This document shows positions 3,352 through 17,118 of a stretch of DNA of 64,000 nt, piece after piece. A program made the position numbers and the translations under genes. The stretch comes from Mesorhizobium japonicum MAFF 303099 (GTDB lineage Bacteria > Pseudomonadota > Alphaproteobacteria > Rhizobiales > Rhizobiaceae): NCBI RefSeq assembly GCF_000009625.1, contig NC_002678.2, forward strand, positions 1,612,001 to 1,676,000. The letters run 5' to 3'. The notes below the pieces were generated by a model, which was not told the origin of the DNA, made no database searches, and worked only from the letters and a program-made list of their open reading frames with translations. The stretch's first letter is position 1. The number at the start of each line of letters is the position of its first letter.

Positions 3352-3600
3352 TCAGCGGCCCCAGAGACTGTCCTCGTTGTGCCGGTTGATGATGTCCTGG
3401 ACCGACCCTTGGCTCGGCCCGGTCGTCACCTCGGTGTCGACGCCGGCCGGGTGCGCGGTGTGGGGGATCGAGGCGGTGGCATTGGTGTCGACGGAAGCGA
3501 CAGGCTGGTTGACATTGTCGCCGCCGAAATGGTCGCTGCCGGCAAAGGCGGCACTCGAGGCAAGCAACATCGCAGCCACGCTGAGAGCGAGCTTGGTCAT
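3352..3600 (-). CDS. small secreted DUF680-like protein, paralogue
   Basis: 82 residues starting MTKLALSVAAMLLASSAAFA, then GSDHFGG and NQPVASVDTNATASI, ending DSLWGR. It shares the signal, the GSDHF start of the mature protein and the W-G end with the neighbour at 3077-3298, so the two look like a tandem duplication. AAGGA lies about 9 nt before the ATG. A longer open frame to 3672 lacks a signal peptide at its start and is rejected. Function unknown. Confidence 0.75.
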   Translation of the reverse strand: MTKLALSVAAMLLASSAAFAGSDHFGGDNVNQPVASVDTNATASIPHTAHPAGVDTEVTTGPSQGSVQDIINRHNEDSLWGR

Positions 3601-3750
3601 TTCAGGTAAATCCTTGTTTCGTTTCTTCGCGTCGCGGGCCGGTTTGGCCCCGCTGAAGGGAAGACCCGGCAAGGCGGTGCTTTATTCCCGAGGGTGGTGA
3701 GCTTTTTTTGGAAGGGGCGGGTTCAAGGGGTCGCGGCCAGGCAGAACTTT

Positions 3751-3924
3751 GGTTCCTCGCCCCCACGAATGTGGGGGAGAGTGGCTCGGCGAAGCCGAGA
3801 CGGAGCGGGCGATGGCGCAGACCTGTGCCAGCTTATGTTCCTAGAGAGGTCGCGCTTTACGAAGGCCCCCTCTCCGACCGCTTCGCGGCCACCTCTCCCC
3901 CGCCTTTAACGGGGGCGAGGAACC
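3751..3924. repeat. MITE-like palindromic element, 174 bp
   Basis: Perfect 14-bp terminal inverted repeats GGTTCCTCGCCCCC (3751-3764) and GGGGGCGAGGAACC (3911-3924) enclose further palindromic blocks, including CTCGGCGAAGCCGAG. No open frame inside looks coding. It resembles the shorter element at 1407-1452 and the element at 61964-62109. Confidence 0.7.
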
Positions 3925-3949
3925 GGCTTTGCGCGGCTCTCCAGCCGCT

Positions 3950-4021
3950 CAGACACAATTCAGAAACAAGTTTCAACAATTCGGAAAAACTGGCGAAAAG
4001 ATCGGATGGCATAACCATCCT
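3950..4021. repeat. 72-bp dispersed repeat, copy 1
   Basis: This stretch aligns without gaps to 62121-62192, with about 12-13 differences by eye; the two start alike (CAGACACA) and end alike (ATAACCATCCT). In both places it follows a MITE-like palindrome by 10-25 bp, so palindrome and tail look like one compound repeat. It lies upstream of the synthetase gene and inside the spurious N-terminal extension of that frame. Confidence 0.65.
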
Positions 4022-4162
4022 GCGGGGGACTGCGTGGACTTCCTTTTCCGAAGCTTCGGTCCGCCATCGACAAGGGTCAAATTGCAGCGGCGGCACAGCC
4101 GAAAATGCCTGCTCGAACGGCGACATGAACAGCCGGGCGATACGCGGCCAGGACGAGAAAGT

Positions 4163-7100
4163 ATGGAAATGGATTACGGTGTCGATATCGTCGGCCTGGA
4201 CAGGGACGCGGCAAGCCAGGGCAATTCACCCGAGACTGGGCTGGCCCAAAACGGGCTGGCAAGCGTCGATGCGCTAGCTAGGCTCGCTCACGATTCGGCA
4301 TCGGCTGCTCGCAGCCAGATCCTGTTGGGCGCCGATTTCGCGCGGGCAGGCCAGCCCTACGAGCGGCTCGACGCGGTCTTCGAAGAGCTCGCTCAAACAT
4401 TCGCCACCTTGCCGGCGGTGATCTCCGACGGACGTGCCTGGACGTATCAGGAGCTGGACCGCCGCGCCAACCAGTTCGCCCGTGTGCTGATCAAGCGCGG
4501 CGTGCGGCCTGGCCACCGGGTCGGGCTCATTCTCGACCGCTCGGCGGAGACCTATATCGCCTTGCTCGCCGTGGTGAAGGCGGGCGCCGCCTTCGTGCCG
4601 CTGGCCACCGCCTTTCCGCAAGAGCGCATGGCGCTGATCATCGAAGACGCCGGCGTCAGCCTGATCGTCACCATCGCCACCTATGCGTCGCGGGCCGACC
4701 AGCTGCCGGTTCCCCATGTGCTGATCGACAGCGCCGCCGCCGAGATCTCCAAACAGTCCGGCGCGCCGCTGAAGCCGCAAGAGGCGCCGGCGGAAGACAT
4801 TTGCTACATCCTGTACACGTCGGGCACGACCGGCAGGCCGAAGGGCGTGGCCATCCGGCACCAGAGCTTCGTCAACTTCATCCGTGTCGCCGCCGCGTCC
4901 TACGGCTACAGGCCGGGCGATCGCGTCTACCAGGGCATGACGATTGCCTTCGACTTTTCCTCCGAGGAGATTTGGGTGCCGTTCGTCGCCGGCGCGACCG
5001 TGGTGCCCGCGCCCGGCCAGATGCCGCTCGTTGGCGAGGAGCTGGCGGATTTCCTGCGCCACCATGAAATCACCTGCATGGCCTGCAGCCCGACGCTTCT
5101 GTCGTCCATGACATCGGATGTGCCCAGCCTGCGCACACTCCTGGTCGGCGGCGAGGCCTGCCCGCACAATCTGGTGGTGCGCTGGTCGAAGCCGGGGCGG
5201 CAGATCCTCAACACCTATGGCCCGACCGAGGCGACCGTCACGGCAACGATGGGCGCGCTGACGCCGGACAAGCCGGTCACCATCGGCGTGCCGCTGCCCA
5301 CCTATTCCATCGTCATTCTCGATCCGTCGCTGCCGGAACTGGCCGAGCCCAGTGAACTGGGCGAGATCGGCATTGCCGGCATCGGGCTCGCCGTCGGTTA
5401 CCTGAACAGGCAAGACCTGACGGAACAGAAGTTCATCGCCGATTTCATCGGCCTGCCGAACAACCCGTCGCAGCGCATCTACCGCACCGGCGACCTTGGC
5501 CGGATCAACGGCGATGGCGAGATCGAATATGCCGGGCGCATCGACACCCAGGTGAAGATCCGCGGCTATCGTATCGAGCTCGGTGAGATCGAGGCGGTGC
5601 TGCTGGACCAGCCGGAGATCGCACAGGCTGCCGTCACCACCTGGGAGATCGAGCCCGGCCGCGTCGAACTCGTCGCCTATTACGCGCCCAAGGCCGGACA
5701 GCCGGCGCTCTCGCGCGCCGATCTCGCCCAGACGATGAAGCGGCGCCTGCCGGATTACATGGTGCCCTCCTATCTGGAGGAACTGCCCGCGATCCCGATG
5801 ACGGTCTCCAACAAGGTGGACCTTCGCCAGCTGCCGAAGCCGACAAGCGTGCGGCTTTCCGCCGACCGGGCGATGGTAGCGCCCGGCAATGACGACGAGC
5901 GCTTCCTGGCCGAGGCGCTGGGCGCGGTGCTGAAATTCGACGAGGTGTCGGTCGAGGACAATTTCTTCGACGATCTCGGCGCCAACTCGCTGCTGATGGC
6001 GCATTTCTGCGCGCGTGTGCGCACCCGCAAGGAATGGGCGACGACGTCCATGCGCGACATCTATCTCCATCCGACGGTGGCGCGCCTGGCCAAGCACCTC
6101 AGCGTCTCGGAAGATATGACGGCCGCCACCAACGAGCCTGTTCTCACCCGCCGGGCGTCGAATTTTGCCTACTGGACCTGCGGAATGGCGCAGTTGCTGT
6201 TCTACGGGGTCTACAGCTATGTCGGCCTGTGGGCGATCAACATCGGCCTCAACTGGATGTATGAAGCGCTCGACGATCCGCTGCAGCTCTATATCAGATG
6301 CGTGGCGCTCTCGTCCGGCGTGTTCTTCGGCATGACGGGCTTTGCCGTCCTGGCGAAATGGGTGCTCGTCGGCCGCTGGAAGGCCGAAACCTTCCCCATA
6401 TGGGGCCTGCGCTACTATCGCTTCTGGGTGGTCAAGACCTTGATCCGCACCGCCCCCGTCGTGCTGTTCCGCGGCAGCCCGCTCTACAGCCTCTATCTGC
6501 AGCTTCTCGGCACCAAACTCGGACACAACGCCGTCATCGAATCCAAATCCGTACCGGTCTGCACGGATCTGATCTCGATTGGCGCCAACACCATCCTGCG
6601 CAAGGAATCGATGATCCTCGGCTATCGGGCGCAGTCAGGCTATATCCACACCGGACCGCTGACCATCGGCCGCGATGCCTTCATCGGCGTGGGCTCCACG
6701 CTCGACATCGACACCTCTATTGGCGACGGCGGCCAGCTCGGCCATTCGTCCTCGCTGCAGCGCGGGCAAAGCATCCCGGACGGCGAACACTGGCATGGGT
6801 CACCGGCCGTGCCGACCACGGCGGACTATTGCAAGGTGCGCAATGTAAATCCTTACCAGGTCCGCCGCTTCCTCTATGAGGCCGTTCAGCTGGTGGTGCT
6901 GTTTGCCATCGTCACCCCACTGCCATTCCTGTTCCAGAGCTATTGGGAAAGCGTCGGCGACGACTACCAGGAGACGATCGGCCTTGTCGCGGTCGGCACC
7001 ACGGTCACGCTCTTTGGCTATATCGCCGTGGCCTTTCTCGTGGCGACGCTGGTGCCCCGCTTGACAAACCTGGTTCTGAAGCCAGGCCGCACCTACACGC

Positions 7101-8302
7101 TTTACGGTTTCCGCTACTGGCTGCAGACCGTCGCCGAATTCACCAGCAACTCGCGCGTGCTGGGGCTGCTGTTCGGCGACAGCTCGGCGATCGTGCATTA
7201 CATGCGCGCCATCGGCTGGAACCTCAACAAGGTGGTGCAGACCGGCTCCAATTTCGGCTCCAACCAGCAGCACGAAAACCCGCTTCTGTGCGAGATCGGC
7301 ACCGAGACCATGGTGTCGGACGGCCTGTTCATGATCAACATGCACAAATCCGCCTCGGCGTTCCGGCTCGAGCGGACGCGCATCGGCGAGCGCAACTATC
7401 TCGGCAACAACATCTATTATCCGCCGGATGGACGCACGGGCGACAACGTCCTGCTCGGCACCAAGGTGATGATCCCCATCGATGGGCCGGTGCGCGAGAA
7501 TGTCGGGCTCCTGGGTTCGCCTGCCTTTGAAATCCCCCGCATGGTCAACCGCGACAAGGAACTCATCGCCGGGGTCGACGAGGCGGACCGACGCCAGCGC
7601 ATCCCGAACAAGAACCGCCACAATCTGGTGACGATCCTTCTGTTCCTGGCCACGCAATGGGCGATGCTGTTCGCAACGCTGGCGATCTGGGATCGCGCGC
7701 TGAACTACTACACCGAATGGGCTGAGGTGGCGCTGTTCGTCGCCGTGCTCCTGACCTCGGCGATCACCATTCCGTTCTACATCCTGGTCGAACGGGCCAG
7801 CCTTGGCTTCGGCCGGCTGAAGCCGCAGATGACGACGATCTACGACGTCGCGTTCTGGCGCCACGAACGCCATTGGAAGCTTGCCGATTCGCCGATCGTG
7901 CGCCTGTTTGCCGGCACGCCGTTCCGGCCGATGATCCTGCGCATGCTAGGCGTCAAGGTCGGCAGCCGCGTCTATGATGGCGGAGCTAACCTGACCGAGC
8001 GCTCGCTGGTCGAGATCGGCGACGATGTCACGCTCAACGAAGGCTGCGTCATCCAGGCTCACTCGCTGGAGGAAGGCGCGTTCAAGTCCGACTATATCCG
8101 CATCGGCAAGGGCTGCACGCTCGGACCGTCCGCCTTTGTCCACTACGGCGTCGTGATGGGCGAAGGATCGGTGGCAGACACAGATTCCTTCGTCATGAAG
8201 GGCGAGGAGCTGGAACCCCACTCCATCTGGCGCGGCAACCCGGCCAAGCTGCATCGCTTCGTGATCCCGGTCACGGACGACGGTGCCAAGGCGTCGGCTT
8301 GA
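4163..8302 (+). CDS. Pls/PosA-type single-module NRPS: adenylation, carrier, six membrane spans, three C-terminal soluble domains
   Basis: 1379 residues from ATG 4163 (GGACGAG upstream); the frame upstream to 3929 crosses a repeat. Adenylation domain ~66-560: YTSGTTGRPKG at 218-228, TYGPTE 351-356, YRTGD 440-444, KIRGYR 465-470, and the lysine of NKVD at 551. Carrier domain ~580-650 with the phosphopantetheine serine at 609 (DDLGANSLL). Six hydrophobic spans near 673-695, 712-735, 905-925, 937-963, 1157-1177 and 1187-1209 alternate with three soluble domains (~775-885, ~1000-1125, ~1260-1368); the first and third have hexapeptide-like turns. No condensation or thioesterase domain. This is the layout of epsilon-poly-lysine synthetase and its relatives. 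Hand alignment to GrsA gives pocket D264 F265 E268 A307 L327 G329 T351 V359 T360; the acidic E268 would suit a basic amino acid. Substrate unproven. Confidence 0.93.
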   Translation: MEMDYGVDIVGLDRDAASQGNSPETGLAQNGLASVDALARLAHDSASAARSQILLGADFARAGQPYERLDAVFEELAQTFATLPAVISDGRAWTYQELDRRANQFARVLIKRGVRPGHRVGLILDRSAETYIALLAVVKAGAAFVPLATAFPQERMALIIEDAGVSLIVTIATYASRADQLPVPHVLIDSAAAEISKQSGAPLKPQEAPAEDICYILYTSGTTGRPKGVAIRHQSFVNFIRVAAASYGYRPGDRVYQGMTIAFDFSSEEIWVPFVAGATVVPAPGQMPLVGEELADFLRHHEITCMACSPTLLSSMTSDVPSLRTLLVGGEACPHNLVVRWSKPGRQILNTYGPTEATVTATMGALTPDKPVTIGVPLPTYSIVILDPSLPELAEPSELGEIGIAGIGLAVGYLNRQDLTEQKFIADFIGLPNNPSQRIYRTGDLGRINGDGEIEYAGRIDTQVKIRGYRIELGEIEAVLLDQPEIAQAAVTTWEIEPGRVELVAYYAPKAGQPALSRADLAQTMKRRLPDYMVPSYLEELPAIPMTVSNKVDLRQLPKPTSVRLSADRAMVAPGNDDERFLAEALGAVLKFDEVSVEDNFFDDLGANSLLMAHFCARVRTRKEWATTSMRDIYLHPTVARLAKHLSVSEDMTAATNEPVLTRRASNFAYWTCGMAQLLFYGVYSYVGLWAINIGLNWMYEALDDPLQLYIRCVALSSGVFFGMTGFAVLAKWVLVGRWKAETFPIWGLRYYRFWVVKTLIRTAPVVLFRGSPLYSLYLQLLGTKLGHNAVIESKSVPVCTDLISIGANTILRKESMILGYRAQSGYIHTGPLTIGRDAFIGVGSTLDIDTSIGDGGQLGHSSSLQRGQSIPDGEHWHGSPAVPTTADYCKVRNVNPYQVRRFLYEAVQLVVLFAIVTPLPFLFQSYWESVGDDYQETIGLVAVGTTVTLFGYIAVAFLVATLVPRLTNLVLKPGRTYTLYGFRYWLQTVAEFTSNSRVLGLLFGDSSAIVHYMRAIGWNLNKVVQTGSNFGSNQQHENPLLCEIGTETMVSDGLFMINMHKSASAFRLERTRIGERNYLGNNIYYPPDGRTGDNVLLGTKVMIPIDGPVRENVGLLGSPAFEIPRMVNRDKELIAGVDEADRRQRIPNKNRHNLVTILLFLATQWAMLFATLAIWDRALNYYTEWAEVALFVAVLLTSAITIPFYILVERASLGFGRLKPQMTTIYDVAFWRHERHWKLADSPIVRLFAGTPFRPMILRMLGVKVGSRVYDGGANLTERSLVEIGDDVTLNEGCVIQAHSLEEGAFKSDYIRIGKGCTLGPSAFVHYGVVMGEGSVADTDSFVMKGEELEPHSIWRGNPAKLHRFVIPVTDDGAKASA

Positions 8303-8754
8303 AGGCCGGAGAAATCCGCCTCGCCCCTGTGACCAAGGCCAATCGGGCCTTGGTCGCGTCGCTGGAACTGGCGCCGGAGCAAATGGATTTTGTCGCTGGC
8401 AATGAAGCCTCGCTGGAGGAGGCGCAATCCGACGAGGACGCGCGGCCACGTGTCATCATGGCCGGGGATCGTATCGTCGGTTTCCTCATGTACGACGCGC
8501 CGGATGATGACGACGAGGCGCGCATCTACCGCTTCATGATCGACCGCGCCTGGCAGGGCAGAGGCTACGGCAAGGCCGCGTTGCGCGAGGTGCTGCACGA
8601 GATCGGCGGGCTCGGTCACGTCAGGCACGTCTCGATCTGCTACGAACCGCAGAATGAAGCGGCACGCCAGCTCTATCGCACCGCCGGTTTCGTGGAAGAA
8701 GGGCTCGACGAGGATGGGGAAATGATCGCCGACCTCGTCCTGCCTAGAGGATGA
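8299..8754 (+). CDS. GNAT N-acetyltransferase resembling diamine/spermidine acetyltransferases
   Basis: 151 residues. The start is a TTG at 8299 that overlaps the synthetase stop (TTGA), implying translational coupling. Acetyl-CoA binding motif QGRGYG at 86-91, followed by the second GNAT half CYEPQNEAARQLYRTAGF (114-131). The order of motifs and the acidic N-terminal half resemble BltD/PaiA-type polyamine acetyltransferases; family placement is from memory. Between the synthetase and the PPTase, the likely job is acetylating the product or its amine building block, as tailoring or self-protection. Any amine acceptor is possible. Confidence 0.85.
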   Translation: MKAGEIRLAPVTKANRALVASLELAPEQMDFVAGNEASLEEAQSDEDARPRVIMAGDRIVGFLMYDAPDDDDEARIYRFMIDRAWQGRGYGKAALREVLHEIGGLGHVRHVSICYEPQNEAARQLYRTAGFVEEGLDEDGEMIADLVLPRG

Positions 8755-8760
8755 TCGTCA

Positions 8761-9396
8761 ATGCGGCCACCCTCCCCTGAAGCCGCGTTGACCGAGGCGA
8801 TGGCGGCAATCGCGCCGCAAGGTGTCCGGACCGGATGCCGGGTGATAGGCGACGCGGACGAGGCCCACCTGCTGCCCGAGGAAGCGCGTTCCATCCCTGC
8901 GCGCCAGCCGGCCATGCGCCGCGCCAGCGGTGCCGCCCGCTGGGTCGCGCACCGGCTGCTGGCCGATACCGGCATCAGCGACCTCGCCATTCCGCGCGCC
9001 CCATCCGGCGCCCCGCTCTGGCCGAACGGGATAGTTGGCTCGCTCGCCCATGACGACGACATGGCCGTGGCGGCGGTCGCGCCTGTCGGCGGTATCGTCT
9101 CTCTCGGCATTGACGTCGAGCCCGCCGAACCCTTGCCGGACGACATTTTCGCGATCGTTGCAACCGGCGCGGATCGCACCGGCGCGGCGGACCCGCGGCT
9201 AGCCGGCCGCATCCTGTTTGCCGCCAAGGAGGCGGTCTACAAGGCGGCCTACCCGCTCGATCGCGAGGTGCTGGGCTACGAGGACATCGCCGTGGACCTC
9301 GATGCCGGCCGCGCGACGACGAAGACCGGCCGCAAGGTCAGCCTCGCCTACTGCATCGCCCCGCGTGTGGTCGTGTTGGCGTTTGTCGGCAAATAG
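8761..9396 (+). CDS. EntD/Sfp-type 4'-phosphopantetheinyl transferase
   Basis: 211 residues. It transfers the phosphopantetheine arm of CoA to a carrier-protein serine. Visible motifs: GSLAHDDD (93-100), the magnesium-binding GIDVEP (D118, E120), and the helix KEAVYKA (156-162). The start follows the GNAT stop by 6 bp with GAGGA upstream, so it belongs to the same transcript as the synthetase. Serine 609 of the synthetase is the obvious target. Length fits EntD-type enzymes. Confidence 0.9.
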   Translation: MRPPSPEAALTEAMAAIAPQGVRTGCRVIGDADEAHLLPEEARSIPARQPAMRRASGAARWVAHRLLADTGISDLAIPRAPSGAPLWPNGIVGSLAHDDDMAVAAVAPVGGIVSLGIDVEPAEPLPDDIFAIVATGADRTGAADPRLAGRILFAAKEAVYKAAYPLDREVLGYEDIAVDLDAGRATTKTGRKVSLAYCIAPRVVVLAFVGK

Positions 9397-9402
9397 CGCA
9401 GC

Positions 9403-10506
9403 CTATTCGCCCACAATCTCCCGATAGGTCCTCATCGCGCCGTCCTGGCCGCGTATCCGCCAGGTGTCCCCTTCGCGGCCCTCGATAGGACACGGCCCGA
9501 GCGGCACCTTGCCGCCGCCTTCCGGCAAGTCGAGCACATAGACGGGATTGCAGATGCCGGACAGGCGCGCCCTCAGCGCTTCCACCAGCGCCTGGCCTTG
9601 CGCGATCGTGGTGCGCCGATGCGCCATGCCGCGCGCGAGGTCGCCGTGGTGCAGGTAATAGGGTTTTACTCCCAGCCGGTACATCAGCTCGCGGCAGAGC
9701 TCCTCCAATACCTCGACCGTATCGTTGACGCCCTTGAGCAGAACGCTCTGGTTGAGCAGCACGAAGCCCGCCTGCCGCATGGTGCGGCACGCCACCTCGG
9801 TCGCGGGCGTGATCTCCCGCGCGTGGTTGAAATGCGTGACGACGGTCACCATCAGCCGGCCCTGCAGCGCGGCGACCAGCCCGGATGTGATGCGCGACGG
9901 CAGCGCGACTGGCACGCGGGTGTGGATGCGCAGCAGCCGCACATGCGGGATCGCCTCGATGCGCGCGACGATTTCGGCCAGCGCCTTGTCGGGCAGCGAG
10001 AGCGGGTCGCCGCCGGTCAGGATCACCTCGCGGATCTCAGGATGATCCGCGATATAGGCCAGCGCCGGCTCGAGCGCCTCGCGCGTATAGCCGCGGCCGA
10101 TCGAGGTCAGCGATTCCTTGCGGAAGCAGAACCGGCAATAGACCGCGCATTGATAGGTCGGGAACAGCAGCACCCGGTCGGTATGGCGATGCGTCAGTCG
10201 CGGCACCGGGCTGAAGTCATGGTCGGCGATCGGATCGCCCAGCTCGCCCTCCGCCTCCTCCAATTCGTCCGGCGACGGGATGACCTGCGCGCGGATCGGA
10301 TCGGCCGGGTCGTTCCAGTCGATCAGGTCGAGATAGGCTTTTGGCGCACGCACCTTGTGGTGCGCGGCAGCAGCTTGGGCGGCGGCGCGCTCGACCGGCG
10401 ACAGCGGCAGGCGGTCGAGATCGCGCACATGCCGCACGCCCTGGCGGACATCGTCCTGCCAGGTGGTGTCGGGGGCGGCGCGGGTTGCATCTTTGAGGTC
10501 GGTCAT
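9403..10506 (-). CDS. lysine 2,3-aminomutase-like radical SAM/PLP enzyme (KamA/EpmB family)
   Basis: 367 residues. The iron-sulfur cluster motif is C120-A-V-Y-C124-R-F-C127. The PLP lysine is K333 in PEGGGKVP. The two aspartates that bind the lysine side-chain amine in Clostridium KamA (D293, D330) have counterparts D289 and D326 with identical spacing to each other and to the PLP lysine, so lysine is a credible substrate. Length is nearer EpmB (342) than KamA (416). It converges on the PPTase gene with only 6 bp between stops. Two readings: EpmB-like, making (R)-beta-lysine for elongation factor P, or a supplier of beta-lysine to the neighbouring synthetase. No epmA or efp gene is in the window. 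Confidence 0.9.
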   Translation of the reverse strand: MTDLKDATRAAPDTTWQDDVRQGVRHVRDLDRLPLSPVERAAAQAAAAHHKVRAPKAYLDLIDWNDPADPIRAQVIPSPDELEEAEGELGDPIADHDFSPVPRLTHRHTDRVLLFPTYQCAVYCRFCFRKESLTSIGRGYTREALEPALAYIADHPEIREVILTGGDPLSLPDKALAEIVARIEAIPHVRLLRIHTRVPVALPSRITSGLVAALQGRLMVTVVTHFNHAREITPATEVACRTMRQAGFVLLNQSVLLKGVNDTVEVLEELCRELMYRLGVKPYYLHHGDLARGMAHRRTTIAQGQALVEALRARLSGICNPVYVLDLPEGGGKVPLGPCPIEGREGDTWRIRGQDGAMRTYREIVGE

Positions 10507-10557
10507 GGCAGGTCTCGGAGTGGTCGCGCGGACCTATCGACCGGATGGACGACGCGG

Positions 10558-10770
10558 TCAACCGTCACTGGAAGCCAACGGCGCAAGCCGCGCCCGTAGA
10601 GCACCGGCCCTGCCAAGCAGCCAAACCTCACCCTCCAGGCCAATGTCCTTCAGGCGGCGGTCGGAAAACCGCGAAATCCGGCGCAACGCGCGGCGACGCT
10701 CAAATGCCGCCGTGCTGCGTATGGCAAGGCCGCTCATCGCGGCGCCAATGGGTCCAAGGGTCAAGGTCAT
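10558..10770 (-). CDS. DUF1127 small protein
   Basis: 70 residues with the DUF1127 core near the middle (RRALRRISRFSDRRLKDIGL). AGGAG sits 7 nt before the ATG. DUF1127 proteins are short, arginine-rich and abundant in Rhizobiales; some affect small-RNA turnover or phosphate and carbon responses, but no role can be assigned here. It lies just upstream of the aminomutase gene in the same direction (51 bp gap) and divergent from a LysR gene. Confidence 0.8.
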   Translation of the reverse strand: MTLTLGPIGAAMSGLAIRSTAAFERRRALRRISRFSDRRLKDIGLEGEVWLLGRAGALRARLAPLASSDG

Positions 10771-13041: not shown

Positions 13042-13998
13042 ATGACCGACGATCCTTTCTCCGACATCCTCAAATTCACCAGCGCGCAAACCATGGTTAC
13101 AGGCGGCTTCACCGCCGGCGAGCCATGGGCGCTGCGCTTTCCGGCGCCCGAAAAAATCAAATTCTTCGCCGTGGTGAAGGGCAGTTGCTGGATCCGCCTC
13201 GAGGGCGAGGAGGAGCCGGTGCATGCGAAAACTGGAGACGTGCTGCTTTTGGCATCGCGGCGCTCCTTCATCCTCGCCAGCGACCTGTCCGTGCCGCCGC
13301 TCGACGCCATGGCGGTGTTCTCCGGTTGCAGGATCGCCCAACTCGGCGACGGCAAGGATTTTACGCATATTGGCGGCCACGTGCTGCTCGACCAGGCGAG
13401 CGGGCGGCTGCTGGCCGACGTCTTGCCGCCATGGATCCACATCCACGCCTCGTCGCCGCAAGCGACAATCCTGCGCTGGATCCTTGACCAGCTGGTGCGC
13501 GAGCAGGCGGATGGCCAGCCGGGCGCCAGCCTTGCCTCGGCGCAGCTCGCGCAATTGCTGTTTATCCAGGTATTGCGGGCGCATCTGCAGACATCGAGTC
13601 TTATGCCCGCCGGCTGGCTGCGCGCGCTCGCCGACCCGCGCCTGGCGCCGGCGCTGCGGCTGATGCATGGCGACCCTGGCCGCGACTGGCATCTGGAGGA
13701 ACTCGCCAGAGCCGCCGCCATGTCGCGCACCAGTTTTGCCTTCCATTTCAGGCAAACCGCCGGCGTCGCGCCGCTGACCTACCTGACGCAATGGCGCATG
13801 CATCTGGCCGAGCGCGCCTTGCGCGAGGAAGATACGCCGGTGGCGGTGCTTGCCCGCTCCCTTGGCTACACCTCGGAAAGCGCCTTCAGCAATGCCTTCA
13901 AGCGCGCCACCGGCACCGCGCCCAAGCGGTATCGAACCGCGGGGAAAGCCGAACGGTCGGGTGACGCCGAAGCGCGGTCGCTGAGCCTGGTATCTTGA
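13042..13998 (+). CDS. AraC-family regulator with cupin-type sensor domain
   Basis: 318 residues from MTDDPFSDILKF; an in-frame ATG at 13003 is possible and neither has a strong ribosome site. Residues ~10-180 form a cupin-like ligand domain (KIKFFAVVKGSCWIRLEG, then a DVLLLASRRSF strand). The C-terminal ~100 residues hold two helix-turn-helix units of the AraC type (LEELARAAAMSRTSFAFHF and VLARSLGYTSESAFSNAFKR). It is divergent from the SDR at 11907-12947, the classic arrangement for an activator and its target. Confidence 0.87.
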   Translation: MTDDPFSDILKFTSAQTMVTGGFTAGEPWALRFPAPEKIKFFAVVKGSCWIRLEGEEEPVHAKTGDVLLLASRRSFILASDLSVPPLDAMAVFSGCRIAQLGDGKDFTHIGGHVLLDQASGRLLADVLPPWIHIHASSPQATILRWILDQLVREQADGQPGASLASAQLAQLLFIQVLRAHLQTSSLMPAGWLRALADPRLAPALRLMHGDPGRDWHLEELARAAAMSRTSFAFHFRQTAGVAPLTYLTQWRMHLAERALREEDTPVAVLARSLGYTSESAFSNAFKRATGTAPKRYRTAGKAERSGDAEARSLSLVS

Positions 13999-14195
13999 AA
14001 AATCAGGGAAGGCGGAGGCCCGAGACAGGTGGCCAGATCGGGACTGTCCAGCTGTCTCGGGCCTGATGCATGCCGCCCGAAAAGGGGGCATCGATTTTCA
14101 GGGAACCGACATGCATTGAAGGGCTCCGCGCACAGAGTGGACGTTGGTATCAGCGGCACCAGTCGTCATATGAGGGGTGTCGACCAGGACCTGCG

Positions 14196-14408
14196 CTACT
14201 CCTTGGCGCGATAGGCTTCCGGTATGACGAACACTTCGTCGGCCCGGCCATAGCCGCCGTCGGCGACCTCCTCGACCAGCACCATGGTGGTGGGCCGCAC
14301 GCCTTCGCCGAAAAAGTCGACGAACATGGCTGTGGTCCGATGGATGAGGTCTTCTTTCTGCGCCTTGGAGAGAGCGGCCTGCGGCAGCTTGATGTTGGCG
14401 AATGGCAT
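14196..14408 (-). CDS. 4-oxalocrotonate tautomerase-family protein
   Basis: 70 residues, MPFANIKLPQAALSKAQK at the N-terminus: the proline directly after the start Met is the catalytic base of the family once Met is removed. The middle carries TTMVLVEEV, typical of the second strand. AAGGAAA lies 5 nt before the ATG. It is the last gene of an apparent operon behind two SDR genes (31 bp gap). Longer open frames through this region read the same strand but lack the Pro-1 start. Confidence 0.88.
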   Translation of the reverse strand: MPFANIKLPQAALSKAQKEDLIHRTTAMFVDFFGEGVRPTTMVLVEEVADGGYGRADEVFVIPEAYRAKE

Positions 14409-14439
14409 GATGGTTTCCTTTTCTGTTGGGGTTGGGTTT

Positions 14440-15333
14440 TCAGGCTTTGGGATGGAGCAGGTCGGCAAGGCCGATCCGCTCCAGGAGTTGCGCGCGCACG
14501 CGGTCGGCAACGCCGTTGACGATCGCGGCGCCATCGTCGGAGGGATCGATATGAACGCGCAGCGGGCGGCTGCCATGCGGCATGGCGACGAGGTCGACGA
14601 TTGCCTCGGCGACCTCGGCCGGATCGGCATCCGCCGGTTCCAGCGACGCCAGCCCCTTCAGCGCCTGCTGGTCGGCACCGGCATAGGGACCGGACCAATA
14701 GGCGCCGGCGCGCTCGGCATCGGCGGGTGCCGCCGCGTGGTGGAAATGCTCCGTGCCCTTGGTGAAGGCGCCCGGCACCACGATCGTCGTTTCGATGCCG
14801 AAGCGGGCGAGTTCCAGCGCATAGCTCTGCGCCAGCGCGTCCATGCCGGCCTTGGCCGCGAAATAGGGGGCCAGGAAGGGCGGCGTGCCGCCGCGCGTGC
14901 TGCTCGAACCGACCCAGATCATCTGCGCCCGGCCGAGAGACCGCATATGCGGCAGGGCAGCCCGATTGACGCGCTGCGTGCCGACGACATTGACGTCATA
15001 GAGCTGCGTCAGCTGTTCGGGCGAAAACGCCTCGGCCGGCCCGAACCCCATATGCCCGGCATTGTGGATCAGCACGTCGAGCCGGCCGGCTTCGCCGAGG
15101 ATCCGCCGGATCGCCGCTTCTGCAGAGCCATCGGAGGTGACGTCGAGCGCGATGGGCTTGAGCACCACGCCCTCGTCACGCGCAAGCGCCTCCATTTCGG
15201 CTGCCGCCGCACCACCGCGTGCCGAGGGATCACGCATCGAGGCAAAGACTGTGTGGCCGGCTCTTGCGAGCGCCCGCGCAGTCATCGCGCCAAAACCGCT
15301 GGAGGCGCCGGTGATCAGGATTGTCCGTTTCAT
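14440..15333 (-). CDS. classical short-chain dehydrogenase
   Basis: 297 residues. TGASSGFG cofactor motif at residues 8-15, LIHNAGHMGFG (NAG motif), active serine in WVGSSST and YFAAK catalytic pair. GGGAGG lies 6 nt upstream of the ATG. Middle gene of the SDR-SDR-tautomerase operon, 11 bp after the upstream SDR stop. The C-terminal extension past the Rossmann core (~60 residues) resembles the retinol-dehydrogenase-like SDR group. Substrate unknown. Confidence 0.87.
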   Translation of the reverse strand: MKRTILITGASSGFGAMTARALARAGHTVFASMRDPSARGGAAAAEMEALARDEGVVLKPIALDVTSDGSAEAAIRRILGEAGRLDVLIHNAGHMGFGPAEAFSPEQLTQLYDVNVVGTQRVNRAALPHMRSLGRAQMIWVGSSSTRGGTPPFLAPYFAAKAGMDALAQSYALELARFGIETTIVVPGAFTKGTEHFHHAAAPADAERAGAYWSGPYAGADQQALKGLASLEPADADPAEVAEAIVDLVAMPHGSRPLRVHIDPSDDGAAIVNGVADRVRAQLLERIGLADLLHPKA

Positions 15334-15344
15334 CTCGGCCTCCC

Positions 15345-16121
15345 TCAGATCACGCCGCCATTGGCGCGGATGATCTGTCCGTTGACCCAGCCACTGTCCG
15401 GCCCGGCCAGGAACGACACGACGCCGGCAATGTCGTCGGGCTGGCCGAGCCGGCCGAGCGGGATCATCTTGCCGATGGCCTCGATCTGCGTCGCGCTCTT
15501 GCCGTCCATGAACAGCGCGGTCTCGACCGGCCCGGGCGCCACCGCATTGACGGTGACGCGGCGCGCGCCAAGCTCCTTCGCCAGGATATGCGTCATCGCC
15601 TCGACCGCCGCCTTGGTGGCGGCGTAGACGCCGTAGCCCGGCTGATAGAGGCCGACGACGCTGCTCGAGAAATTGACGATGCGGCCGCCGTCGCGAAGGC
15701 GTTTCGCGCCCTCGCGCGTGCCCCGGAACACGCCGCCGAGATTGACCGCGATCTGCGCGTCGAAGGAGGCGTCGTCGGTCCCGGCGATGGGCGACAGCTT
15801 CATGATGCCGGCATTGTTGACAAGGATATCGACGCCGCCGAACGCCTTCTCGCCGGCATCGAAAAGGGTGGCAATACCGGTGGGATCGGCGATGTCGGCC
15901 TGCACGGCGATCGCCTTGCCGCCTCCGGCCTCGATCGCGCCGCGGACCGCGTCGGCCTCGGCGCGGCCCCGTGCATAATTGACGACGACGGCCAAACCGT
16001 CGCGGGCAAGCCGCTGCGCGATCGCCGCACCAATGCCCTTGGAGGCGCCGGTCACGATCGCGGTTCTGATTGGATTGCCCGTGCTTGTCTGCTGGCCCGT
16101 ACTTGTCTGCTGGTTTGTCAT
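15345..16121 (-). CDS. classical short-chain dehydrogenase, FabG-like
   Basis: 258 residues. VTGASKGIGAAIA cofactor motif, NNAGIM, and YGVYAATKAAVEAM catalytic region. First gene of the operon with a GGAGAG ribosome site. The N-terminus carries a tandem six-residue duplication, QQTSTG QQTSTG, reflected in the DNA as two 18-bp near-copies at about 16076-16111. The tail lies before the Rossmann fold, so the duplication is probably neutral. Confidence 0.87.
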   Translation of the reverse strand: MTNQQTSTGQQTSTGNPIRTAIVTGASKGIGAAIAQRLARDGLAVVVNYARGRAEADAVRGAIEAGGGKAIAVQADIADPTGIATLFDAGEKAFGGVDILVNNAGIMKLSPIAGTDDASFDAQIAVNLGGVFRGTREGAKRLRDGGRIVNFSSSVVGLYQPGYGVYAATKAAVEAMTHILAKELGARRVTVNAVAPGPVETALFMDGKSATQIEAIGKMIPLGRLGQPDDIAGVVSFLAGPDSGWVNGQIIRANGGVI

Positions 16122-16224
16122 GGAAGTCTCTCCGAATTGCTGGTGACGCGGATATAGACGCAGCGAGCCGCCGGATAATCAGCCGTGCCTTGACATCACT
16201 ATTCGGAAACTGCGAACAAAGAGC

Positions 16225-17118
16225 ATGGATCGCCTGGACACGATGCGGCTCTTCGTTCGCGTGCTGGAGCGGCGCAGTTTCACCGCTGCCGCCGCCGATC
16301 TCGGACTGCCGCGCTCAACCGCGACGGAAGCGATCCGCCGGCTCGAGGAACATCTCGGCGCACGCCTGCTGGAGCGGACGACGCGGCAGGTGAACGCCAC
16401 GCAGGACGGCGAGGCCTATTACCGGCGCTGCCTGCCGATCCTGGCCGAGATCGAGGACGCGGAAGCCGCCTTCCGCAACGCCGAGCCCTTCGGCCTGCTG
16501 CGCATCGACGCCAGCACGCTGCTCACCCGCACCTTCCTGCTGCCGCGCCTCCCGGAATTCCTCGCACGCTATTCGCGCATCGACCTGCAGATCGGCCAGA
16601 GCGATCGGCTGGTCGATCTCGTGCGCGAAGGCGTCGATTGCGTCATCCGCGTCGGCGAGCCGCCCGACAGCGGCATGATCATGCGCCGGCTGGGGATGAT
16701 CCGCGAGATGACCTGCGCCAGCCCCGCCTATCTCTCTCGCCACGGCACACCCGCCTCCCCCGACGCGCTCGACGGCCACCAGGCGGTTGGCTTCGTCTCG
16801 TCGCGCACCGGCGAGGTGCTGCCCTTCGAATTCACCGTCAACGGCAAGACCCGCGAGATCCGGCTGCCGGGCCGCGTCGCCGCCAACAATTCCGACACCG
16901 CCGCCGATCTGGCGCGGCTCGGCCTCGGCCTCATCCAGGCGCCGCGCTATCGCTTCGAGAAGGACCTTGCTCAGGGCATGCTGGTCGAGGTGCTGGCCGA
17001 CTACCCGCCCTCGCCGACGCCGCTATCGGCGCTCTACCCGCAGAACCGCCAGCTCTCGCCGCGCCTGCGCGTCTTCCTCGACTGGGCCGCGCGCATCTTC
17101 GCCGAGGCCAACCTGTAG
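16225..17118 (+). CDS. LysR-family regulator
   Basis: 297 residues. N-terminal winged helix-turn-helix (MDRLDTMRLFVRVLERRSFT, then LGLPRSTATEAIRRLEEHLG), followed by the effector fold ~88-295. The start and recognition-helix pattern belong to the large CrgA/AaeR-like LysR group, which often controls divergent oxidoreductases. It lies 103 bp from, and divergent to, the SDR-SDR-tautomerase operon, which is the probable target. Confidence 0.88.
   Translation: MDRLDTMRLFVRVLERRSFTAAAADLGLPRSTATEAIRRLEEHLGARLLERTTRQVNATQDGEAYYRRCLPILAEIEDAEAAFRNAEPFGLLRIDASTLLTRTFLLPRLPEFLARYSRIDLQIGQSDRLVDLVREGVDCVIRVGEPPDSGMIMRRLGMIREMTCASPAYLSRHGTPASPDALDGHQAVGFVSSRTGEVLPFEFTVNGKTREIRLPGRVAANNSDTAADLARLGLGLIQAPRYRFEKDLAQGMLVEVLADYPPSPTPLSALYPQNRQLSPRLRVFLDWAARIFAEANL

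Follow-up and report, generated by a model that had tools for sequence, protein, structure and literature searches.

The stretch analysed here is a 64,000-nucleotide region of Mesorhizobium japonicum MAFF 303099 (contig NC_002678.2, positions 1,612,001 to 1,676,000), called the window below and numbered from its first letter. A biosynthetic unit was identified in it, and the real unit is composed of three genes, which encode a single-module synthetase of the Pls/PosA family, a GNAT acetyltransferase and a 4'-phosphopantetheinyl transferase (PPTase). It is about evenly balanced, in our judgement, that this unit, which would have moved or often been lost within the genus, joins a short diamino acid, L-2,4-diaminobutyrate (Dab) being the likeliest, into a short cationic homopolymer with isopeptide links.

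The 1379-residue synthetase (4163..8302, forward strand) is, by its sequence, a clear member of the Pls/PosA family, whose proteins appear in NCBI under the name 'Pls/PosA family non-ribosomal peptide synthetase'. It scored 983.9 bits against TIGR02353 over the full model length (cut-off 423.1; residues 672-1361), and was the only protein of its genome above that cut-off. Its Pfam matches were AMP-binding (residues 73-414), AMP-binding_C (475-551), PP-binding (581-646) and a single Hexapep match (1312-1337), and neither condensation nor thioesterase models were among them. The adenylation (A) domain (4379..5836, forward strand) was followed by a thiolation (T) or carrier domain (5903..6100, forward strand), whose predicted attachment serine, Ser609 in the motif LGANSL, was unchanged across 20 aligned sequences. 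Then came the C-terminal polymerisation domain (6176..8245, forward strand), for which TIGR02353 and hydropathy suggested membrane helices in three pairs and three soluble parts; the C-terminal domain of PosA was modelled with three left-handed beta-helices in section 13 of PMC10522769. The Pls-type synthetase with Pls domain order proposed in a preliminary description of the locus was thus confirmed by the TIGR02353 score and the Pfam A and T matches. As to the six membrane spans claimed there, five membrane-like segments were clear (713-737, 906-924, 942-960, 1155-1173 and 1191-1209), and the sixth, near 678-696, was weaker with a hydropathy score of 1.42, so that the six-helix, three-pair arrangement of the family was recovered on hydropathy grounds. 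The hydrophobic peaks at 132-150 and 156-174 were not counted as spans because they lie inside the A domain.

The three genes were tightly packed. The start codon of the GNAT gene (8299..8754, forward strand, TTG start) overlapped the synthetase stop, and the PPTase gene (8761..9396, forward strand; Pfam 4PPT_N plus ACPS) started 6 bp past the GNAT stop. A gene for a KamA-family radical SAM protein (KAM; 9403..10506, reverse strand), lying outside the unit, converged on them with its stop codon 6 bp from that of the PPTase gene. The coordinates and spacings of all four open reading frames (ORFs) agreed with those first described. The PptT and Npt models matched the PPTase as well, both below cut-off.

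The distribution of the genes in genomes defined the unit. The synthetase was searched for in 61 genomes and found in 24, 21 of which belonged to the 37 genomes of the genus; a family member was present in 48 of 297 genomes drawn from the order. Partner genes were counted on 35 of the 37 genus genomes, with G007 and G024 (86 and 90% complete, without synthetase match) left out. A GNAT gene at least 61% identical at the locus was present in 21/21 synthetase-positive and 0/14 negative genus genomes (Fisher p 4e-10), and the counts for a PPTase homologue at the locus (at least 47%) were the same, 21/21 and 0/14 (Fisher p 4e-10), with one partial 33% match in the negative genome G001 set aside. 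Thus the unit consists of three genes, and their order, synthetase, GNAT and PPTase, was the same in all 20 other synthetase-positive genus genomes. Chance is no concern, since the family score is far above the curated cut-off and the gene order recurs in those 20 genomes. Weaker extra PPTase homologues (36-40%) were found in G000, G031 and G034, and second weak GNAT matches (35%) in G005 and G018. The association of the PPTase with the synthetase and the self-contained nature of the unit, both suggested earlier, were borne out by these counts, and the unit was patchy in the genus and located at different sites. The survey of the four-gene neighbourhood proposed in the same description was run, and co-occurrence held for the three genes of the unit and failed for the KamA-like gene, whose occurrence was independent of the synthetase.

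A wider set of 112 non-redundant loci (23 + 80 + 20, minus 8 without the C-terminal domain and 3 duplicates) gave the same picture in terms of the substrate pocket code. This set was chosen partly by two peptide patterns and partly as 20 hand-picked order-level matches, so that its code frequencies are not natural ones, and 22 of its 27 DFEA-code loci came from this genus. A GNAT homologue within 4 kb was detected at 26/27 DFEA-code loci versus 0/82 loci with another readable code, and a PPTase homologue at 27/27 versus 1/82; the five DFEA-code loci outside the genus had GNAT in four cases and PPTase in five. The code was unreadable in three loci, one of which, the split gene of G005, had both partners. 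No further conserved gene was found near the DFEA loci, where the remaining common neighbours looked lineage-specific by eye.

That the unit has decayed, or that its product is a small capped aminoacyl compound instead of a polymer, appears quite improbable. The synthetase of G005 (L050, 7953-11938) was split across two frames with an open frame of 990 codons, as decay would predict. Against this, many positions were invariant in the 20-sequence synthetase alignment, and the open frame was at least 1367 codons long in all 20 other positive genus genomes. Among the matches listed, the C-terminal part was up to 92% identical to proteins named Mesorhizobium, and the synthetase of G022 (L040) equalled that of Mesorhizobium sp. 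ES1-4 (L119) over the last 600 residues, which marks the genus as Mesorhizobium. The GNAT and PPTase genes were both present in G005, which had neither a KamA-like match nor a match to EpmA.

The monomer could be approached from the pocket of the A domain. The ten-residue code DFEALGTVTK (residues 264, 265, 268, 307, 327, 329, 351, 359, 360 and 551) was read through an alignment of about 108 residues to PosA (8g95) and Pls (7wew). Code positions 1 and 3 were filled by Asp264 and Glu268, as in the Pls/PosA family, and in PMC10522769 Asp and Glu at these positions are described as binding the two amines. The same source proposes that position 2 sets the chain length, with Ala in lysine enzymes, Met in PosA and Phe in PDAP/PDAB enzymes, and gives DGESISVVNK, with Gly at position 2, as the beta-lysine code. 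Phe265 stood at this position in the window protein, and Phe occupied it in 115/115 proteins longer than 1200 residues, out of 121 made up of the best 120 listed matches and the window protein; 89 of these 115 had the identical code. A Phe there suggests that the substrate is a diamino acid with a short chain. Lysine and beta-lysine, the latter raised as a possible component in the preliminary description, were rejected as monomers on the code, with Phe265 in place of the Ala of lysine enzymes (DAESIGTVV(K) in Pls, read from 7wew) or the Gly of DGESISVVNK.

The phylogeny of the synthetase points to Dab. In a midpoint-rooted tree of 109 sequences, in which the supports of inner nodes were not considered, the 28 DFEA sequences formed a branch with support 1.0 that joined sequences with the code DFEC.S.VTK, 44 together with support 0.96, and branching nearest to it were three DFEC-code loci of the alphaproteobacterial order (L052, L216 and L218). 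A Dab-transaminase-like gene was a neighbour in 12 of 17 DFEC.S loci and an aspartate-kinase-like gene in 6 of 17. Six of those transaminases were scanned, and all six were over the TIGR00709 cut-off, with four also over the EctB cut-off; the single neighbouring kinase scanned was an aspartate kinase. The DFEC.S.VTK branch would on these grounds make poly-Dab, and since the DFEA branch grouped with it and its transaminase neighbours, a poly-Dab synthetase was probably the ancestor of the DFEA branch. Dab as the monomer of the window enzyme is accordingly given about an even chance.

Two other short diamino acids could be loaded by the same three-gene unit. L-ornithine, which would give delta-poly-ornithine as with PosA, is unlikely. 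The code of PosA is DMEHNGTVSK (PMC10522769), which the window code does not reproduce, six of ten letters being the same; the two codes agree at positions 6-8 and 10, though the lysine code has these letters as well. The last five code letters of the window occur in an ornithine-type pocket, since the order-level relatives L210 and L213 carry DMEHNGTVTK, and the unit has no gene for monomer supply, of which ornithine would need none. On the other side, Phe instead of Met fills the chain-length position, and the branch joins the DFEC.S enzymes and not the DMEHN branch. L-2,3-diaminopropionate, the monomer of the PDAP type, is a little more unlikely still. Phe also fills position 2 in the PDAP synthetase described in the literature (PMC10522769, sections 9 and 14), whose precursor genes are not close to it (PMC4668381, section 7); however, the tree puts the transaminase-linked branch nearest, and the SbnA search of the window's own genome yielded no match above cut-off (best 246.8 vs 349.95).

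Several observations weigh against Dab and the role proposed for the unit. A Dab-transaminase homologue was near 0/27 DFEA loci, and was lacking near 5/17 DFEC.S loci as well. TIGR00709 was over cut-off in 12/21 synthetase-positive and 10/14 negative genomes, so the TIGR00709 route of Dab supply does not follow the presence of the unit. The pocket differs from DFECLSVVTK at three letters (C to A, S to G and V to T), and its positions 6-8 (GTV) are the same as in the ornithine and lysine codes. In addition, one DFEA locus (L209) had no detectable GNAT, and the substrate of the GNAT was guessed from distant relatives.

Some further loci of the family were observed on the way. No precursor gene was recognised beside four other DFE-code loci (L136, L148, L154 and L163), where few ORFs were viewed by eye without a family scan. 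In Pseudonocardia alaniniphila (L130), a DFECLSVVTK synthetase was followed by another protein of the synthetase cluster (13692-16307), which by eye had apparent carrier and C-terminal parts and no adenylation domain. Eight order-level synthetases (L217 and L219-L225) carried DLED(I/L)G(T/S)VVK; a similar code, with the substrate reported as unknown, is given for Rhizobia and Methylobacterium in section 10 of PMC10522769.

In the proposed mechanism, which was modelled on Pls and PosA (PMC10522769) and on the PDAP synthetase (PMC4668381), the PPTase would arm Ser609 on the T domain, and the A domain, judging from its motifs and pocket, would adenylate the diamino acid and load it onto the T domain. 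Going by characterised relatives, the membrane-embedded C-terminal domain could link the monomers from side-chain amine to carboxyl and deliver the chain at or across the membrane. The isopeptide-linked cationic polymer of the preliminary description was for this reason accepted as probable by analogy with those relatives. The polyamine-type GNAT may acetylate free product amines in the cytosol, for self-protection or as an end cap, which is the weakest step. The adjacent KAM would be the EpmB of the genome and take no part in the pathway.

The GNAT was of the spermine/spermidine acetyltransferase kind by Pfam and solved relatives. Its closest solved chains were 9dsb (7.2e-15, residues 3-144) and 2fl4 (1.5e-14, residues 5-144), covering most of its 151 residues, and its homologues were labelled diamine N-acetyltransferase in some JGI records. 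Acetylation of leaked product or of the chain end would be the simplest role for so constant a partner. Given these solved relatives, a possible acetylation of the product, whether to protect the cell or to cap the chain, stands out as the point of most interest in the unit. We tentatively suggest, at less than even confidence, that this branch moved its pocket off the Dab type and gained an obligate polyamine-type acetyltransferase, giving a cationic isopeptide that is acetylated in part or carries an N-acetyl cap, or using polycation acetylation as self-protection. If this is true, the locus would be a biosynthesis-plus-immunity cassette, absent from the other branches sampled.

The preliminary description had the KAM supply beta-lysine, within a four-gene pathway, for a polymer of the epsilon-poly-beta-lysine type, and this now seems very remote. 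The KAM abutted or lay near the PPTase gene in 12/13 genomes with the synthetase type of the window (two with 1.6-1.9 kb between), its only solved relative found was L-lysine 2,3-aminomutase 2a5h (7e-83), and the discovery of epsilon-poly-beta-lysine itself went through a Pls homologue with a lysine-2,3-aminomutase gene next to it (PMC10522769). The genome counts told otherwise. KAM homologues at least 82% identical were present in 20/21 synthetase-positive and in 12/14 negative genus genomes, and the gene was beside the synthetase in 0/8 genomes of the second synthetase type. When 32 KamA-like genes were placed in a tree, all 12 adjacent cases fell into one clade (topology only, branch supports not considered). 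The KAM was therefore rejected as a pathway member, since 12/14 synthetase-negative genomes carry it and it adjoins the unit in one clade only, and the earlier claim did not hold, the gene mostly accompanying epmA. Pocket position 2, with F and not G, also speaks against the four-gene pathway, and the sole non-redundant locus of the set with a beta-lysine-like code (DGESVSVVNK) had a different aminomutase beside it. Beta-lysine is unlikely at the window because the KAM lies outside the unit, and the KAM neighbour should not serve to predict beta-lysine at this locus. In the synthetase-negative genome G035, genes for DUF680, metallo-hydrolase, TPR and DoxX proteins lay on the same side of the KAM as in the window, and the site of the would-be unit held an AraC-like ORF; in G008 it held a metH-like gene (both named by eye).

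The best reading of the KAM, not a proven one, is that it is the EpmB which would serve beta-lysylation of elongation factor P (EF-P), probably a housekeeping gene unrelated to the unit. EpmA was found in 37/44 genomes, and KAM and EpmA were concordant in 39/44 (34 with both, 5 with neither; Fisher p 0.0009), with KAM and no EpmA in G014 and G038 and EpmA and no KAM in G006, G013 and G046. This agreement depends largely on genomes from outside the genus, because one genus, in which both genes are near-universal, supplies 31 of the 34 genomes that have the two. The two matches were 71 bp apart on one strand in G041. In the window's own genome, the only one in which EF-P was looked at, EpmA adjoined the gene of an EF-P with the loop PGKG, whose lysine we take to be the modified residue. 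Against EpmB stand that predominance of one genus, the two genomes G006 and G013 with EpmA and without KAM, and the family scores, in which lysine 2,3-aminomutase reached 309.9 (cut-off 525.4) and EpmB 276.9 (cut-off 369.3), both below and the former higher. The KAM was above cut-off for TIGR00238 (284.8) and below it for TIGR03822 (355.8). Its independence from the synthetase is a firmer result than its identity as EpmB.

A second KamA-family gene was revealed in the same genome at G000:C1:4832462-4833496 (L109), 39% identical to the window KAM and about 24 kb from a Dab-transaminase homologue at 4807203-4808447. At 3751-3924, ahead of the synthetase gene, lay a long and imperfect inverted repeat with 27-nt arms 120 nt apart, and a 21-mer from it (3879-3899) occurred a single time in the window at up to 3 mismatches. 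No consensus promoter was found in 3600-10700 (1.2 expected), and the terminator-like sites there, 8 versus 3.9 expected, were not used as evidence.

For the significance of the unit, cationic homo-polyamino acids were, according to PMC10522769, reported among bacteria from Actinomycetes only before PosA, and the biological significance of these polymers is called unclear in PMC9606270. The branch is uniform in Mesorhizobium and relatives, 21 of the 37 genus genomes having the synthetase, and with its own pocket and acetyltransferase partner it offers a compact and genetically tractable test case, which could show the identity of the polymer, its role in soil or near roots and the tolerance of the producer to its own polycation.

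Compared with known systems, the window synthetase shares with Pls and PosA (TIGR02353) the A-T order followed by a C-terminal membrane domain, the lack of detected condensation and thioesterase domains, and Asp/Glu at code positions 1 and 3. It differs from both in its pocket, DFEALGTVTK versus DAESIGTVV(K) and DMEHNGTVSK, and in the 112-locus set its coupled GNAT and PPTase were not near loci with Pls or PosA codes. The Dab-type branch (DFEC.S.VTK) is closest in the tree, with Phe at position 2 and seven of ten letters of DFECLSVVTK in common, but the window unit has GNAT and PPTase and no adjacent transaminase. The loci for epsilon-poly-beta-lysine, described in PMC10522769 as having a lysine aminomutase adjacent, resemble the window in that a KamA-superfamily gene lies beside the synthetase. 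They are unlike it in code, and the KAM turns up across the genus whether or not a synthetase is present, unlike a dedicated lysine 2,3-aminomutase. A better candidate for epsilon-poly-beta-lysine may be L132/L053 (G038, Bacterium MnTg02, order Hyphomicrobiales), where a Pls homologue (5414-9451 in L132) with code DGESVSVVNK stood beside a lysine-aminomutase-like gene (3885-4907; TIGR03820 259.5, below cut-off). Like the EpmB/KamA-like partner of EpmA and EF-P, the KAM mostly co-occurred with EpmA, but it scored under the EpmB equivalog cut-off. The spermine/spermidine acetyltransferases 9dsb and 2fl4 are the best solved relatives of the GNAT, yet distant in sequence, and unlike them the GNAT of the unit was confined to synthetase-positive genomes within the genus. 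The family, its domain logic and its members in Rhizobia are already known, those in section 10 of PMC10522769 having another code. In the literature searched, neither the DFEALGTVTK code, which may be listed in the supplementary code table of PMC10522769, nor an acetyltransferase gene within a Pls unit was found. What sets this branch of a known family apart is a substrate pocket of its own and a near-constant acetyltransferase partner.

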